Below are positions 15,199 through 22,385 of a DNA stretch of 64,000 bases, piece by piece. The translations under genes were made by a program, and so were the position numbers. How positions within the stretch are numbered: position 1 is the first letter of the stretch; the number at the start of each line of letters is the position of its first letter. Location: the NCBI RefSeq assembly GCF_011043555.1, contig NZ_JAAKGS010000001.1:248001-312000 (forward strand), given 5' to 3'. Below the pieces are notes generated by a model. It searched no databases and was not told where the DNA came from. It saw nothing but the letters and a program-made list of their open reading frames with translations. This stretch comes from Sphingobacterium sp. SGR-19 (GTDB lineage Bacteria > Bacteroidota > Bacteroidia > Sphingobacteriales > Sphingobacteriaceae).

Positions 15199-15319
15199 AA
15201 ACGTTAGTGTGCGTCTTTGTTTTACAATATGGGAAACCAAGAGATGATTTAGAAGTTAAAATTTGTTAATTTCCAATTATGGCGTAATATATACACACTG
15301 GGTGGCGTTATACTAGTAC

Positions 15320-15389
15320 TTCATAATTTTAGGTTTATAATTGGTTAGTTAGTTAAAATCCCGGAGTTCCCCACTCCGGGATTTTTTTG
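15320..15389 (+). ncRNA. Candidate short terminated RNA, copy A
   Basis: A stretch of about 38 nt at 15320-15358, with core TTGGTTAGTTAG at 15341-15352, recurs almost unchanged on the minus strand at 22291-22328. In both places a GC-rich terminator hairpin follows immediately. Here the hairpin is an 11-bp perfect stem (15357-15367 with 15373-15383) and seven T. The conserved part begins with CATAATTTTAGG, which could include a -7-like box, so the transcript may be only 40-60 nt. Identity is unknown to me; it could also be a conserved terminator leader for dapA. Confidence 0.45.
15357..15389 (+). terminator. Strong intrinsic terminator
   Basis: Stem AATCCCGGAGT / ACTCCGGGATT with loop TCCCC, followed by T7. 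It terminates the small-RNA candidate and possibly read-through from dapA. Confidence 0.9.
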
Positions 15390-15533
15390 TATTCTTGTGC
15401 CGAAGCTCACTACAGTTTTCCATACGACGCGTATTTTTTTATCGGGAGTTCTGTTTTTAAAAAAGGAGTAATAACTATTTATAGCAAACAATTTTGTCAA
15501 ATAACTATTAATATAGTAATATAATAAAGCAAT

Positions 15534-17546
15534 ATGCGAAAAAAAAATAAAACGACATTCCTTCCTGGGATTGTCATACCAAGCCTTGTTTTTATTTTTG
15601 GTGTAACCATTTTATCGGTTTTTTTTCCGAACCGTACCGAATATTATTTATCCATTGTTAAGAATATTTTGTTTGAGAACCTCAATTGGCTCTATGTTAT
15701 GGTAGTAACCATCTTTGTGTTCTTCCTACTTTTTCTTTTCTTTAGCAAGTATGGCGGTATCAAACTCGGCACGAACGATTCCAAGCCCGAATTTTCCTTT
15801 TTCTCCTGGGTTTCGATGTTGTTTGCCGCTGGAATGGGGATCGGTTTGATGTATTTCGGTGTGGCAGAACCGATATCGCATTATGCTGATGCTGCCTTTG
15901 GAGATGCTTCGCCCATACAAAGAGCAAAAAGCGCTCAGTTATATACCTTTTTTCATTGGGGAATACACGCCTGGTCGATATATGGACTTGTTGGGTTAAG
16001 TTTAGCTTATTTTACTTACCGATACCGATTGCCTTTATCGCTTCGAAGTTGCTTCTACCCTATTTTAAAAGAGAAAATAGACGGAAAGGCGGGCGATCTT
16101 ATCGATATGTTCGCCTTATGTAGTACCTTTTTTGGTATCACTACAAGCCTTGGTTTTGGTGTTTCGCAACTTGGTGCGGGGCTAGTACATCTCGGTGTCT
16201 TGGATGAAATTTCTTTTACTTCACAGATATTAATTGTCGTAGGTGTGATGACCATTTCTATTTTATCAGCGACAACGGGCGTGGCTAAGGGGGTAAAGCT
16301 ATTAAGCCAGATTAACATTGTAGCGGTAGTTGTACTGCTGATTTTTATATTAATATTCGGGCCAACAGTCTATTTACTAGGAAGTTTTTCAGAAAACCTC
16401 GGCTATTATATTAATGAGTTTTTTAACCTGACTTTTGCTACGCATACATACGAACCAGCACATAAGGAGTGGTTTTTTAATTGGACAATTCTATACTGGG
16501 CATGGTGGATATCTTGGTCACCTTATGTAGGTCTGTTTATTGCAAAAATTTCCAAAGGGCGTACGATACGCGAGTTTATAGGCGCTGTGCTAATTATCCC
16601 GACCTTGTTTAATTTTCTGTGGATGACGGTTTTCGGAAATAGCGCAACTTGGTTGGATCAACATACAGCACAAGGCGCACTGGCGGCAGTAGCAAATAAC
16701 ACCGATATCTTGCTTTTTGAATTTTTTAAATATTTTCCCCTGACGGCCATTGTCAGCGTATTTGCTATCCTAATCCTTGTTATCTTCTTTGTCACATCGG
16801 CGGACTCGGGGATTTTTGTGATGAACAACATTTCTACAAAAAATGCGGCAGTATCTCCCAAATGGCAGATGGTATTTTGGGGCGGAATGTTGGCCCTTTT
16901 GGCCTTAGTATTGTTAAATGCCGGCGGACTTAAATCGTTGCAGACCATGACGTTGATAACAGCGTTGCCCTTTGCTATTATTATGTTGTTCTTCTGCTAT
17001 AGCTTGGTAAGAGGCTTATTCATCGATAATGAATATTATATGAGACCGCTGTCCCACTCGACCAACAGCTGGTCAGGGACGTATTGGAGGGAACGATTGG
17101 AAAGCATTATTTCCTACCACGGTAAGAATGATATCAATCAATTTTTATCGAAAACCGTTAAAGTGGCGTTTGAACAGTTAGCGGAAGCGTTTAAGAGTAA
17201 TGATATTATCGCGGAGGTAAAAAGTTCCTTAACGGAATCACCTCACCATGTGGAGATTAAAATTCAGCATGAAAATATGGCTGATTTTATTTATGGTGTA
17301 CAAAATGTCGAAAAAACTGTTTCAGATTATTTCCGAACCGAAGAAAACGCTCCCGATATCGAACACCAGCGCACTTATATTCCGATGACCTATTTTGGCG
17401 ATAGTAGAAAAGGTTATGATGTACAGTATTTTACAAAAGAGGAAATTATCAGCGACGTATTAAAACAATACGAACGTTTCCTTAGCTTGTCTTCTGACGA
17501 AAAAAATGAAATATTCCTTGGACAGAATATTCGCGAAGACGACTAG
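15534..17546 (+). CDS. BCCT-family transporter (choline/carnitine/betaine type)
   Basis: 670 residues, twelve transmembrane helices, then a hydrophilic C-terminal domain of about 150 residues (from about 510). AAGMGIGLMYFGVAEPI and the signature WAWWISWSPYVGLFIAKISKGRTIREF are diagnostic of the family. The aromatic box in the signature suits trimethylammonium substrates such as betaine or choline. The MGIGLM segment (Met in place of a Gly of the GxGxG-type stretch) is seen in proton- or sodium-coupled importers. The long cytoplasmic tail resembles that of BetT-like carriers and may sense osmolarity. Single gene, followed by a terminator; exact substrate unknown. Confidence 0.93.
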   Translation: MRKKNKTTFLPGIVIPSLVFIFGVTILSVFFPNRTEYYLSIVKNILFENLNWLYVMVVTIFVFFLLFLFFSKYGGIKLGTNDSKPEFSFFSWVSMLFAAGMGIGLMYFGVAEPISHYADAAFGDASPIQRAKSAQLYTFFHWGIHAWSIYGLVGLSLAYFTYRYRLPLSLRSCFYPILKEKIDGKAGDLIDMFALCSTFFGITTSLGFGVSQLGAGLVHLGVLDEISFTSQILIVVGVMTISILSATTGVAKGVKLLSQINIVAVVVLLIFILIFGPTVYLLGSFSENLGYYINEFFNLTFATHTYEPAHKEWFFNWTILYWAWWISWSPYVGLFIAKISKGRTIREFIGAVLIIPTLFNFLWMTVFGNSATWLDQHTAQGALAAVANNTDILLFEFFKYFPLTAIVSVFAILILVIFFVTSADSGIFVMNNISTKNAAVSPKWQMVFWGGMLALLALVLLNAGGLKSLQTMTLITALPFAIIMLFFCYSLVRGLFIDNEYYMRPLSHSTNSWSGTYWRERLESIISYHGKNDINQFLSKTVKVAFEQLAEAFKSNDIIAEVKSSLTESPHHVEIKIQHENMADFIYGVQNVEKTVSDYFRTEENAPDIEHQRTYIPMTYFGDSRKGYDVQYFTKEEIISDVLKQYERFLSLSSDEKNEIFLGQNIREDD

Positions 17547-17556
17547 TTGTAGAAAT

Positions 17557-17585
17557 CCAGAAGTTCCCAACTTCGGTTTTTTTTC
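17557..17585 (+). terminator. Intrinsic terminator after the BCCT gene
   Basis: GAAGTT/AACTTC stem around CCC (core 17560-17574), closed by CC/GG, followed by eight T. Eleven bases past the stop codon. Confidence 0.75.
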
Positions 17586-17653
17586 GTCTCTACAATATAT
17601 ATACATCTTCAAGAATCCCTAATTCTGGAGGTTTTTCGTAGATAACAAATTGC

Positions 17654-17661
17654 TATCTTTG
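17654..17661 (+). promoter_or_regulatory. -7 promoter element of the envelope operon
   Basis: TATCTTTG, a full match to TAnnTTTG, 19 bases before the ATG at 17681. It places the operon start downstream of the BCCT terminator. A matching -33 TTTG is not exact. Confidence 0.6.
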
Positions 17662-17680
17662 CGTCAGACAGATTAAGACG

Positions 17681-18352
17681 ATGAAAAAATATATGGGGGT
17701 ACTGCTCGTAATCGGATGCTTGACACTAAGTAGTTGTTTCGATCTGGTTGAGCAAATTGATATGGATTACAGAGGAGCAGGAACCATCAAAGCGACTTTG
17801 AATCTAAGTAAGAGTCGTACAAAGGTTGCATCACTCTTGAAAATGAAGCGGTTTAACGGGATTGATATCCCTTCGGAAACAAACATCAAACAAGAAATGG
17901 AAAAAGTAGTCCGAACATTGAAATCCACTCAAGGGATCAGCAGTGTGCAATATAATCTTGATTTCAACAATTATATCGCTACGGTATCTTGCAACTTCGA
18001 AAATATACAGGCGCTAAATGATTTCAGTAAGACGTTATCTTCTCAGTTTAAAATCCAAATTACGAGTTATAACAGCTATCGATACGATCCCGCTTCACTA
18101 ACCTTTACACGTTCCTATACCTATACGCCGAACCTAGCAAAAGAGTTTTCTAGAATCCCGAACGAAGACAAAAGTCTCTTTGCAGATGCATATTATACCA
18201 ACATTATTCGCTTTGATAAAAACATTCAGTCCCAGCGCCATAAACATGCCAAAATATCGACGAATAAACGCGCTGTTCTTTTAAAAGCGAAAGCAGTCGA
18301 TCTAATTAATGGTTCTACCAACTTAACAAATACAATCACTCTCGTAAAATAG
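17681..18352 (+). CDS. Lipoprotein, unknown function (envelope operon gene 1)
   Basis: 223 residues. The signal MKKYMGVLLVIGCLTLSSC has a lipobox with Cys19, so the mature protein is lipid-anchored. The mature part begins DLVEQIDMDYRGAGTIKATLNLS, then alternates helices and strands with no catalytic motif I recognise; LNLSKSRTKVASLL resembles the start of Bacteroidota lipoproteins of about 220 aa that precede large secreted proteins. The stop is three bases before the next ATG, so the genes are cotranscribed and likely act together. Function unknown. Confidence 0.75.
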   Translation: MKKYMGVLLVIGCLTLSSCFDLVEQIDMDYRGAGTIKATLNLSKSRTKVASLLKMKRFNGIDIPSETNIKQEMEKVVRTLKSTQGISSVQYNLDFNNYIATVSCNFENIQALNDFSKTLSSQFKIQITSYNSYRYDPASLTFTRSYTYTPNLAKEFSRIPNEDKSLFADAYYTNIIRFDKNIQSQRHKHAKISTNKRAVLLKAKAVDLINGSTNLTNTITLVK

Positions 18353-18355
18353 AAA

Positions 18356-20383
18356 ATGAAACTTCAGAAAAGTTACATCGCTACGTTATTGGGGCTATCC
18401 GTAGCCGCTACCGGTTACGGACAACAAGATCTTATCCATCAAGTACCCGAACATGCGTCATTTGTATTCCTCATCAACAACCAAGCTATCGTAAACCATA
18501 GTTCCTTCGAAAAGATAAACGAGGTATTTCAAAAACTAGGGGCTTTTGATGATATCGGCAATCAGGATGTACAGATACAAAGTATTAATGACCTCGATCT
18601 ATCTTACGATAGAAGTGCTTATATCTATAAAACAGATACTGATAGTTCTTATTATATCGGTATTCTTCTTCCATTAAAATCTGGGCATCAGATCGGTACA
18701 AATCTATTTAGCAAACTTTCTCCGTTACCTACTTCGCAGGGCTACGAACGTCGCGTCAGCACCGATGGGAAAACGCAGGTTGCGTGGAATAAACATAGCG
18801 TTCTTATATTGACCGGCGACGCGCGCCGTTATTATTTCGATACTGATTCCGTCGCGCAACGATACGGTATAGAACTACCGACTTATGATAAAGTTGTTAC
18901 ATTTCCCGAATATCAATATGACGTCGTACTGGATACGGCCGATATCGAAGATATGGCTGACGCCGTTGCAGATGAAGTCTATACAATTACAGATAGCGTC
19001 GAAACAGCATGGGAAGCTTACGATTTTGACGCCGATACGACGTATCTTGTCGATACCGTTCCCGATAACCTGAATATGGATTTTCCTCCACCTGTGCGAG
19101 AAACAGAGGAAACCCTCGTATACACCGATTACCCCGTTTATGATACGTATTCAGATTCTACGTATCTTCAGGAAATGGCTCGGAATGCGAAAAACGACTC
19201 GCTCCGTAATGCTGCTTTCGCATCATGGCTTGCAGAAGATTTTGATCGTTGCCTCCACCCTATCCAAAACGCGACTTCACATAAATTTTTAAATAAGTTT
19301 GATAAGAAAAATACCTTGGTTCATTTCTGGTCCAAAAACATGATGAGTCTTTACAGCCAGTCTATACCATCTTATTACATGCCTGCTATGCAATATGCCT
19401 TGGTTGGCCAAATGGAGAAACTCGCGTATGCATATCAAGATATTGTCCTCGATTTAGTACAAGATAAGCATACCTTAAAATTACAAGGTTCATTCGGGGT
19501 AGACAAGGAAATGGAGCGCATGATCAAACCCATATACAAAAACAAGATGAACCGTAAGTTTGCACGTTACATACCCGAAAACCATATTGGGTATATGTCG
19601 TTAAACTTCAATTCCGAAGCTTACCTAAAGAACTTCCCGCTCATGATGGAGCAGTTATATGGATCGACGATGTACTTTTCTTTTGGAGAGGTAGCGGGCA
19701 TCGTGGCGACAGCTCTAGAAATCGCCTTGGATGAGAAAGCTATTGCGAATGTTATGGGTGGCGATCATCTCCTGTTCATCAATGAAATGAAAAAAGTAGA
19801 AAAAGAATATATCGACTATCAATACGATGAAAATACCTTTGATTATAAGGAGGTAAAGAAAACAAAAGATGATTACATTCCTACCTTTTTGTGGATGTTT
19901 ACTTCAGAAGATCAACGTATCTATAAAAAGATCTTGAAACTAGGCGAATCCAAAGATAAAGTAACACAAACGGAAGATGTCTATCGTATTGTAGACAAAC
20001 CCGGTGATGAAGTCATATACGCCCTATTTAAGGATAACATTGTCTTTATAAGCAATGATGAAGAACAGCTGTCAGCCATCCGAACAAATCGCTTTCAAAC
20101 TTCAGGGGATCGACGTATTAAAAAGCAGATTTTTTCCAATACCATGACGGCAGTTACGCATCTTTCCGAAATTCCCGAAACCATCAATAAATTGGGAATT
20201 CCCGTAATAAAACGTTGGGATCACGTGGTGAATAATCTATCGGAATACGGTGATGTTACCATCACTGCTCAAGGAAACAAAAAAGGCAGGATAATCGGAG
20301 AGATGGCGGTCGATTTCCCTCAACAGGAAACGAATGCACTGCAATATTTTTTACAGGAACTGTTAAAGACGATAGAAAAATAA
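18356..20383 (+). CDS. Secreted protein with acidic insert, unknown function (operon gene 2)
   Basis: 675 residues with a signal peptide (cleavage near GYGQQ, residue 23-24). The mature start HQVPEHASFVFLINNQAIVNHSSFEKINEVF followed by SAYIYKTDTDSSYYIGILLPL resembles the layout of DUF4836-type Bacteroidota exported proteins (VP..A..V..I....L). Residues about 188-272 form an Asp/Tyr/Thr-rich, low-complexity insert. The C-terminal half has two repeats of a mixed alpha/beta pattern (GYMSLNFNSEAYLKNFPLMMEQLY; TAVTHLSEIPETINKLG). No catalytic motif is seen. Sandwiched between a lipoprotein and a membrane-anchored protein. Confidence 0.75.
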   Translation: MKLQKSYIATLLGLSVAATGYGQQDLIHQVPEHASFVFLINNQAIVNHSSFEKINEVFQKLGAFDDIGNQDVQIQSINDLDLSYDRSAYIYKTDTDSSYYIGILLPLKSGHQIGTNLFSKLSPLPTSQGYERRVSTDGKTQVAWNKHSVLILTGDARRYYFDTDSVAQRYGIELPTYDKVVTFPEYQYDVVLDTADIEDMADAVADEVYTITDSVETAWEAYDFDADTTYLVDTVPDNLNMDFPPPVRETEETLVYTDYPVYDTYSDSTYLQEMARNAKNDSLRNAAFASWLAEDFDRCLHPIQNATSHKFLNKFDKKNTLVHFWSKNMMSLYSQSIPSYYMPAMQYALVGQMEKLAYAYQDIVLDLVQDKHTLKLQGSFGVDKEMERMIKPIYKNKMNRKFARYIPENHIGYMSLNFNSEAYLKNFPLMMEQLYGSTMYFSFGEVAGIVATALEIALDEKAIANVMGGDHLLFINEMKKVEKEYIDYQYDENTFDYKEVKKTKDDYIPTFLWMFTSEDQRIYKKILKLGESKDKVTQTEDVYRIVDKPGDEVIYALFKDNIVFISNDEEQLSAIRTNRFQTSGDRRIKKQIFSNTMTAVTHLSEIPETINKLGIPVIKRWDHVVNNLSEYGDVTITAQGNKKGRIIGEMAVDFPQQETNALQYFLQELLKTIEK

Positions 20384-20395
20384 TATACGGAGTTG

Positions 20396-21676
20396 ATGAA
20401 ACGCACGTTATGGATTTTTGTGATGGTACTGGTGATAGCAGCTGGTACCATCATTGCATTATACCTATTCAGAAAAAACAGAGCACTTGACCAATATGTG
20501 CATTCCAAAAGTCAGGCTATCATATCGGTTGCATTGGACGATCTGCTGTTAGATAATCTCGACCAACTTTTTAGAAGTCGAACGCGGGATACACTCACAG
20601 ACAAAGTATCCTTGCTGGATGTAGAGAATTGGTGGAAGGCGGGAATTTCTATTCCTGCACAACTTCACTTTTTTTCATTAAGCAATGACCCATTCACGTT
20701 CTTCACGATCCAACGCATTGATAATATTGGAAAATGGGAAGCTTTTTTAAACAAATACGCGAACGACTCCGTACATGCTATAGACGACGCTCCGGAGTTA
20801 AGGTTAGCACACTTTTCTCCTTTTATGACGACGCTTCACAATGAACACTATGCGTTATTCCGTATCGGTCTTTCAAAACCGGACAGCGTGGAAGAAATGA
20901 AAGTGATATGGTCAGAAGAAAAAGATTGGGTGTATGTAAGGAATCTTCCTTTTCATTCGACAAAAAAAACAAATGCTCATCTAATCTACCGCGACATCGA
21001 CGCAACGTTTCAGTTATTTGCAGACATAGCTGAAAATCAAATTTCGTTGTCTGGCCAATGGCAACTTACTACGGAGATACCGACCGATGATATGCAGGTG
21101 CGCAAGCCGAAAGAAAATACGAACCTTTTTCTATCGTTTTGGAGTATACTACCACTCGCACAAACACCGGTTATTACTAATTTTTTGTCTGCTGTCTCGG
21201 GTATAGAAAAAACCAAACTAATAAATGACTCGTATGGGTATACAGACCTTTTTATTGGTAATAACATGATAATGCAACAAGATACTATTGTCGTGTACGA
21301 TTACGACGAAGATTTTAATAGTATAGAAAGAAAGGAAATACAGGAAATCAGTGTGCCGCTTATCGAAAGTGTCTGGAAAGGAAATGAACAACTTGCCTTT
21401 TCACTACCCAATAAATTATTCTATAAATTCAGCAAGACGTATACTGATAGCGTCATCCTGTTGTCTACCGATGAGCGGGTAGAATTTTCTCCTACTTTTG
21501 AGACGACATCCAGTCCATTCCGCGTCATGGCTGATTTCAAGAACACACCAAGTTCATGGAACAGTTCTATTGTCAAATCCTTACAGCAACATGATGTTAA
21601 AATAAATATAACTACATCGGTATTAGATAGCAATATATTAGAAATTGATGGTCATATTAGCTACACAGGGAAATAG
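20396..21676 (+). CDS. Membrane-anchored protein, unknown function (operon gene 3)
   Basis: 426 residues from ATG 20396 (the TTG at 20393 adds one residue). A single N-terminal helix, residues about 5-25 (LWIFVMVLVIAAGTIIALYLF), is followed by RKNRALDQY, so the bulk is periplasmic. After the helix, SQAIISVALDDLLLDNLDQLFRS is laid out like the start of the mature gene 2 product, and a strand segment such as LHFFSLSNDPFTFFTIQRI follows, hinting that genes 2 and 3 are distant paralogues (inference, not aligned). It is followed after 14 nt by the end of a convergent lipoprotein gene. Function unknown. Confidence 0.7.
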   Translation: MKRTLWIFVMVLVIAAGTIIALYLFRKNRALDQYVHSKSQAIISVALDDLLLDNLDQLFRSRTRDTLTDKVSLLDVENWWKAGISIPAQLHFFSLSNDPFTFFTIQRIDNIGKWEAFLNKYANDSVHAIDDAPELRLAHFSPFMTTLHNEHYALFRIGLSKPDSVEEMKVIWSEEKDWVYVRNLPFHSTKKTNAHLIYRDIDATFQLFADIAENQISLSGQWQLTTEIPTDDMQVRKPKENTNLFLSFWSILPLAQTPVITNFLSAVSGIEKTKLINDSYGYTDLFIGNNMIMQQDTIVVYDYDEDFNSIERKEIQEISVPLIESVWKGNEQLAFSLPNKLFYKFSKTYTDSVILLSTDERVEFSPTFETTSSPFRVMADFKNTPSSWNSSIVKSLQQHDVKINITTSVLDSNILEIDGHISYTGK

Positions 21677-21690
21677 TTGTCGCAAGACGT

Positions 21691-22200
21691 TTATTGATGA
21701 TCCCATGAGCCCCGGTGATAGACACCTGGCATAGCATGGTCTCCTTCGTCAAAACCAAATGCAACATATCGCACATGAGGCAGTTCCGTAAAGGAATATG
21801 TCGTAGAGACCATAAACTGTTGTGCTCCCGCTGTTCCCATTTGCTGTGTCAATACGGTGCTTTCGGGAATTTCGAGGTACACTGTATCACCAAAAGTTTC
21901 GATATACCGAACCTGTACATTTGGCCATGTGTTATTGATCATTGCTTCAATACCTTCGGCTGTTAAACTATCTGGTTGAACTTCCCGTACTTTAACAGGT
22001 CTGAAATCAAGCGTGGCAGTGTCGTATTTGTATTCCCAGAAAACCTCTGTCGGCACATAAACAAAGGGATCCTCTTTAGGTTGGTCGATGTCCTGTAATA
22101 GGGTATCCGATTGATCGCACCGTTCCCCTTCTTGCTGTGTAGATTGATTACAACCTATACCTAGTAATAATAATCCGATAAACATTGTTTTGATCCGCAT
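21691..22200 (-). CDS. Lipoprotein, unknown function
   Basis: 169 residues from the ATG at 22200, which gives a standard lipoprotein signal (MRIKTMFIGLLLLGIGC, Cys17). The longer ORF to 22275 would run through a terminator hairpin and is rejected. The mature part is acidic and strand-rich (DPFVYVPTEVFWEYKYDTATLDFRPVKVREV; ...GDTVYLEIPESTVLTQQMGTAGAQQFM; YVAFGFDEGDHAMPGVYHRGSW). GTAGAQQFM followed by a C-terminal half ending in an exposed basic-aromatic segment recalls GerMN-like or sporulation/germination-type lipoproteins, but this is only an impression. Convergent with the envelope operon. Confidence 0.65.
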   Translation of the reverse strand: MRIKTMFIGLLLLGIGCNQSTQQEGERCDQSDTLLQDIDQPKEDPFVYVPTEVFWEYKYDTATLDFRPVKVREVQPDSLTAEGIEAMINNTWPNVQVRYIETFGDTVYLEIPESTVLTQQMGTAGAQQFMVSTTYSFTELPHVRYVAFGFDEGDHAMPGVYHRGSWDHQ

Positions 22201-22254
22201 ACGAATGCCCTGCTCTTTTTTGGAATAAACATATAAAACGTGGATATGTTTATG

Positions 22255-22295
22255 AAAAATTAAAAAGGCTTCCATCGGGGAGATTGAAGCCTTTT
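22255..22295 (-). terminator. Intrinsic terminator of copy B
   Basis: Ten-bp stem AAAAGGCTTC/GAAGCCTTTT with a 13-nt loop, followed on the minus strand by TTTTTAATTTTT-like sequence. Confidence 0.75.
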
Positions 22296-22328
22296 ACTAA
22301 CTAACCAATTATTAACCTAAATTATGAA
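22258..22328 (-). ncRNA. Candidate short terminated RNA, copy B
   Basis: Second copy of the conserved leader (22328 down to 22291 on the minus strand; core TTGGTTAGTTAG), differing from copy A at only a few positions, and again followed at once by a hairpin (10-bp stem 22263-22272 with 22286-22295) and a T-rich run. The hairpin sequences of the two copies are different although the leaders match. Here the unit lies 57 nt upstream of the lipoprotein ATG, so it could be either an independent RNA or a transcription attenuator for that gene. Confidence 0.45.
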
Positions 22329-22385
22329 TTACTGTATCGGAGCAATTAATATGCCAATTTCTAAAAAGAACATGAAAATAATCCG

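Follow-up and report, generated by a model that had tools for sequence, protein, structure and literature searches.

The window, a stretch of 64,000 nucleotides from Sphingobacterium sp. SGR-19, contains two copies of a short element, copy 1 at 15320–15389 on the plus strand and copy 2 at 22328–22258 on the minus strand, in each of which a hairpin and T-run lie directly 3′ of a conserved leader. The leaders (copy 1, 15320–15354, plus strand, TTCATAATTTTAGGTTTATAATTGGTTAGTTAGTTAAAA; copy 2, 22296–22328, minus strand, TTCATAATTTAGGTTAATAATTGGTTAGTTAGTAAAA) differ in a single substitution and two indels of one base each, in agreement with a preliminary description of this DNA that had noted a near-identical leader and a terminator hairpin at the two loci, with about three or four differences between the leaders. 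The terminator hairpins, recognized from their folds and from covariation, are CCCGGAGT UCCCC ACTCCGGG with a T-run in copy 1 (15355–15389, plus strand; fold of −19.6 kcal/mol) and GGCTTCAATC UCCCC GATGGAAGCC with a T-run in copy 2 (22258–22295, minus strand). The stem had been thought to be conserved only in shape; the shape is indeed kept between stems of unlike sequence, but the UCCCC loop, which is common to both copies, is conserved in sequence as well. It should be noted that the 15-nt core taken alone shows no excess over chance in the window at up to 3 mismatches (2 found versus 2.96 expected), both matches being exact.

Copy 2 (22258–22328) is upstream of a lipoprotein gene, as had been described, with one detail to be corrected: it occupies the intergenic space that separates this gene from a divergently oriented DEAD-box helicase gene. 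In the list of open reading frames, the lipoprotein ORF begins at 22275, within the hairpin of copy 2; because the lipoprotein signal MRIKTMFIGLLLLGIGC begins near 22201, the copy 2 RNA probably ends 5′ of the true lipoprotein start codon. Orthologs of both copies occur at syntenic positions in other Sphingobacterium species, copy 2 beside DEAD-box and lipoprotein genes (e.g. loci L031, L059, and L077) and copy 1 beside a BCCT gene (L129).

In an alignment of 65 copies, the consensus is TTCATAATTTAGGTTWATAATTGGTTAGTTAG, joined by an A-rich segment to a stem of ∼13 pairs that closes a 5-nt loop and is followed by a T-run. The leader, of about 33 nt (UUCAUAAUUUAGGUUWAUAAUUGGUUAGUUAG), is unstructured, as is also predicted in the fold of copy 1; it is a predicted single-stranded seed in copy 1, on the basis of sequence, alignment, fold, and lack of an ATG, and a predicted seed in copy 2, on the basis of sequence and the 65-copy alignment. 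It is more conserved than the stem, with 17 columns identical across the 65 aligned sequences. Each of the 13 hairpin pairs has at least one compensatory double change, which indicates that selection acts on the stem at the RNA level although its sequence is free to drift. Nearly all copies have the loop UCCCC, which is found in only 2 of the 192 other hairpins of terminator type in the loci examined. Because no copy has an ATG within its first 45 nt, a leader peptide is unlikely.

Extent of the family and its promoters

The SGR-19 genome contains 11 exact matches to the 15-nt core and, as found with a covariance model (E < 1e-6), at least 23 copies of the whole element. Model R1 detects the family in 117 of 151 sampled Sphingobacteriaceae genomes and in 20 of 25 genera, with 7–31 copies per genome within the genus. 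The search of related genomes with a covariance model, proposed in the preliminary description, has therefore yielded many further copies with a constant leader and varying stems, and the suggestion that these are short, terminated RNAs of one family, sharing a constant 5′ sequence, is borne out by these copies, by the covariation of all 13 hairpin pairs, and by the lack of a match in Rfam. The Rfam 15 covariance models give nothing in the window except one tRNA and, at a relaxed E-value, no plausible match to four of the copies; the comparison includes Flavo-1 and Pedo-repair, which had been singled out as families to be compared. Among the matches listed from a scan of public genomes with ATAATTGGTTAGTTAGT, the real ones are nearly all in Sphingobacterium, with a few in Parapedobacter. 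Across the phylum at large, matches are scarce, weak, and mostly single, and no multi-copy family was found outside Sphingobacteriaceae with R1 or with R3, a broader covariance model used on the phylum. No described Sphingobacteriaceae family of such RNAs was found in the literature searched, and the family is apparently undescribed.

Some copies are clustered or in tandem, as on contig C22 of the SGR-19 genome and in genome G147, where three copies are 223 nt apart. At C22:1–25000 (L323 and L324), four near-identical genes for small secreted proteins (M..TLKTIAAALIMVTSLSSFASEK...) are interleaved with several copies of the RNA and with two hairpin-only remnants (C22:2270 and C22:12012); the segment looks as if it had been repeatedly duplicated.

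Promoter motifs were counted in 169 copies, with positions given relative to CATAAT. A sigma-54-type sequence, GG[CT]A[CT]-N5-TTG, is present in 74 of these (0.1 expected) and is fixed at −30/−29. Copy 2 of the window is included; it has GGCATATTAATTGCT, its sigma-54-like −24/−12 promoter GGCAT-N5-TTGCT (22341–22355, minus strand) lies 29 nt 5′ of CATAAT, one of the peak positions of the family, and rpoN is present in the genome at C1:433248. The Bacteroidota −7 element TAnnTTTG occurs at −13/−14 in 40 of the 169 copies, the sigma-54-like box standing in place of it or alongside it. CGTTATA, found in 47 copies (0.3 expected), peaks at −16, the position of the promoter-like box of copy 1 (15306–15312, plus strand). 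TGTTAA lies 50–100 nt upstream in 108 copies (6.9 expected), with peaks at −58 and/or −68; the two positions are one helical turn apart, an arrangement that resembles a paired activator site. In copy 1, it is at 15264–15269 (plus strand), 58 bp 5′ of CATAAT, where the box is found most often in the family, and the direct repeat TGTTAA-N4-TGTTAA is seen in the SGR-19 genome, for example at C2:145905 and C22:22262. The fixed distances of the promoter boxes suggest that transcription starts at or near the start of the leader and hence that the RNA is about 65–70 nt long. Genome-wide, the pair of TGTTAA and sigma-54 boxes is almost confined to these RNA genes. The one further site, at C1:327582–327622 (L367), is 5′ of a small lipoprotein gene (MKTSMKILGLLFITFIAFTSCSKDDD...), which is likely to be co-regulated.

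Pairing potential of the leader with susC start regions

The genes for SusC, a TonB-dependent nutrient transporter of the outer membrane, were the single prior target hypothesis and were tested because the leader, when reverse-complemented, ends in ...AAATTATGAA, a sequence resembling a start-codon region, and because the FopS small RNAs of Bacteroides thetaiotaomicron bind susC start regions (PMC11697453). The genes were identified by TIGR04056 (at least 56 in the SGR-19 genome), the test covered genome stretches and SusC loci with gene starts predicted by an in-house caller, and 200 dinucleotide-shuffled leaders served as the control for duplex energy. For the SusC genes of the SGR-19 genome, the mean energy of the leader duplex is −13.3 kcal/mol versus −11.5 ± 0.66 kcal/mol for the shuffled leaders, 2 of 200 being as low; in an independent replicate with 30 SusC genes from four other genomes, the values are −14.0 and −11.45 ± 0.56 kcal/mol, respectively (0 of 200; z −4.6).

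When the 4,096 possible six-mers are ranked without bias by their enrichment in SusC start regions, ACCAAT is at the top, followed by TAAACC, AACCAA, and TAACCA, all of which are complementary to the leader; once orthologs are removed from the set, leader complements make up 12 of the 20 most enriched six-mers versus 0.16 expected. With composition controlled, the mean log2 enrichment of leader-complement six-mers is 1.45 in SusC versus 0.08 ± 0.18 for letter-shuffled six-mers and is 0.03 in SusD. Perfect pairing with individual susC genes is short, the longest stretch having a mean length of 7.2 nt in SusC versus 6.1 nt in the background. No fixed pairing register was found across SusC. The complementarity is thus statistical over the class, with no single susC proved as a target.

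Other candidate targets were rejected. SusD, the operon-mate downstream of susC, gives no duplex-energy signal (z about −1), and none of the top 20 six-mers in its start regions is complementary to the leader; targeting of genes in general was set aside with 120 background genes, which likewise give no signal (z −0.1). The leader complement at up to 1 mismatch recovers, in the SGR-19 genome, the RNA copies and one other unrelated site and so does not reveal a perfect antisense target. Genome G058, of a genus with no R1 matches, was considered as a family-free negative control but is ambiguous, as it carries weak divergent candidates that are possible copies; its complementarity is weak (z −1.55 versus its own background). 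One such candidate, shortened and divergent, is at L448:1150–1214 (CUUCAUAAGGUUUAUUGAUUGGU...CCUGUCUCCCCGGCAGG), with a weak score (E 0.38).

Proposed mode of action and alternatives

The family, its structure, its promoter motifs, and its complementarity to susC start regions are computed, and the conservation of the UCCCC loop, the sigma-54 promoter class, and the susC complementarity are absent from the preliminary description. The explanation that we consider probable is that the elements encode trans-acting small RNAs that pair with the translation-initiation regions of susC mRNAs and repress them in a FopS-like mode; transcription, pairing in the cell, repression, and the signal are what we infer from sequence. 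Every copy would be an independent small RNA gene, transcribed from a sigma-54 or housekeeping-type promoter with an activator-like TGTTAA direct repeat 5′ of it, from a start at or just 5′ of the constant leader to a stop at the hairpin, ∼65–70 nt on. The unstructured leader, acting in trans, would base-pair across the start codon and 5′ UTR of numerous susC mRNAs, susC being the first gene of polysaccharide-uptake operons, and would thereby block the initiation of translation. The many paralogs, with one seed and differing promoters, would allow several signals to lower the synthesis of outer-membrane transporters, and one of these signals might be envelope stress acting via sigma-54. Such a role is plausible because, in flavobacteria, the genes under sigma-54 control include those for chaperones, Skp, lipoproteins, and other envelope components, together with a putative regulatory RNA, Rfp36 (PMC9723704). 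Because no gene for Hfq or an RRM-type RNA chaperone was found in the SGR-19 genome, pairing may be unaided or may involve another protein. A more far-reaching version, which is tentative and on balance doubtful, is that the RNAs form a sigma-54- and enhancer-controlled, chaperone-independent outer-membrane stress arm in which dozens of one-seed paralogs repress the whole SusC class and the UCCCC loop has a second function.

The alternative that survives best, which we regard as unlikely, accepts a family of small RNAs but takes the leader to be mainly a site for an RNA-binding protein, with the copies acting as a sponge, or the main targets to be other than susC mRNAs. It draws on the invariance of the leader (17 columns in 65 sequences), which exceeds the needs of pairing in a variable register, and on the conserved UCCCC loop, which is not explained by SusC pairing; however, leader-complement six-mers dominate the SusC starts in two independent sets but not those of SusD, and the search for RRM and Hfq genes found neither. 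It is highly improbable that the element has no trans-regulatory role and is a repeated terminator or insulator or else a dispersed REP- or MITE-like mobile repeat. Although its multiple copies, some clustered or in tandem (C22 and G147), and a hairpin that could terminate in both directions are in keeping with such a repeat, the promoter boxes at fixed distances, the greater conservation of the leader than the stem, the compensatory stem changes with an invariant loop, the syntenic conservation of the two window copies among other Sphingobacterium, and the complementarity to SusC are not. A cis-acting leader or common attenuator controlling the downstream gene by termination or read-through, as had been suggested earlier, is scarcely credible, since although promoter, leader, and terminator stand in the right order and copy 2 is ∼60 nt upstream of the co-directional lipoprotein gene, the downstream gene is co-directional in 12 of 21 placed copies of the SGR-19 genome and convergent in 9, at very unequal distances (up to 1,831 nt), the neighboring genes are unrelated, and the consensus has no conserved antiterminator fold.

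To our knowledge, post-transcriptional control in Bacteroidota is poorly known beyond the gut Bacteroides. If trans-acting repression of susC is the true function, small RNA silencing of SusC transporters would be a strategy on the scale of the phylum, which in the present case would use as many as 31 gene copies, would be wired to sigma-54, and would do without the RbpB partner of Bacteroides, and knock-down of the family would lead to higher levels of SusC protein. The analysis also provides a model with which many RNA genes so far missing from Sphingobacteriaceae annotations can be annotated.

Comparison with known small RNAs

The FopS RNAs of B. thetaiotaomicron comprise 14 paralogs; FopS RNAs number 12–15 per genome, are ∼65–70 nt long and mostly intergenic, and have a universal 5′ seed and a 3′ terminator hairpin (PMC11697453). 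The Sphingobacteriaceae RNAs are similar in being multi-copy, mostly intergenic, and probably ∼65–70 nt long, with a universal 5′ region, a variable 3′ terminator hairpin, and statistical complementarity to susC-type start regions. Some copies may also be alike in promoter, since 40 of 169 carry the −7 box of the canonical sigma-ABfr promoter (TTTG/TAnnTTTG). They differ from FopS, which is from Bacteroidaceae, in their host family, in that their largest promoter class is sigma-54-like, in their conserved UCCCC loop, and in the absence of an RRM partner of the RbpB type, there being no PF00076 match in the SGR-19 genome whereas a control Bacteroides genome was positive. As judged from published descriptions, they appear to work like FopS, but because no RRM protein was found, the promoters are partly different, and the likeness is one of descriptions, they are not assigned to FopS.

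In enterobacteria, MicA and RybB are sigma-E-driven, Hfq-dependent porin repressors present in one or two copies. They are unrelated in sequence to the present RNAs and depend on sigma-E rather than sigma-54, but the proposed logic, in which small RNAs driven by an alternative sigma factor lower the synthesis of outer-membrane proteins, is similar. GibS of B. thetaiotaomicron is a single RNA of 145 nt with a PM2 promoter motif and metabolic-enzyme targets (PMC7366714). The present RNAs share with it an intergenic location and a conserved single-stranded 5′ seed directed at translation start regions but differ in copy number, predicted length (∼65–70 nt), promoters, and their proposed susC targets. 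The putative RNA Rfp36 of Flavobacterium psychrophilum (PMC9723704, Table 2) resembles the present family, as compared by description, in that it comes from Bacteroidota and has a sigma-54 promoter; genes for lipoproteins and envelope stress belong to the same regulon as Rfp36.

Two elements from other Bacteroidota families were also observed. One of these, present at L260, L262, L264, and L268, is a conserved element that looks like an RNA gene and occurs in single copy; it consists of GGGGTGGTTCCC...TTTTTCATAATTTAAAGTTTGGTTGGTTATTTAGG with a terminator after it and has the parts UUUCAUAA and UUGGUUGGUUA in common with the Sphingobacteriaceae leader. At L263, there is a sigma-54-like box, a leader containing AATAATTGGTTGGTTGG, and a hairpin whose loop is TCTCCC; this element is a possible distant relative and is perhaps related to Rfp36 of F. 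psychrophilum.
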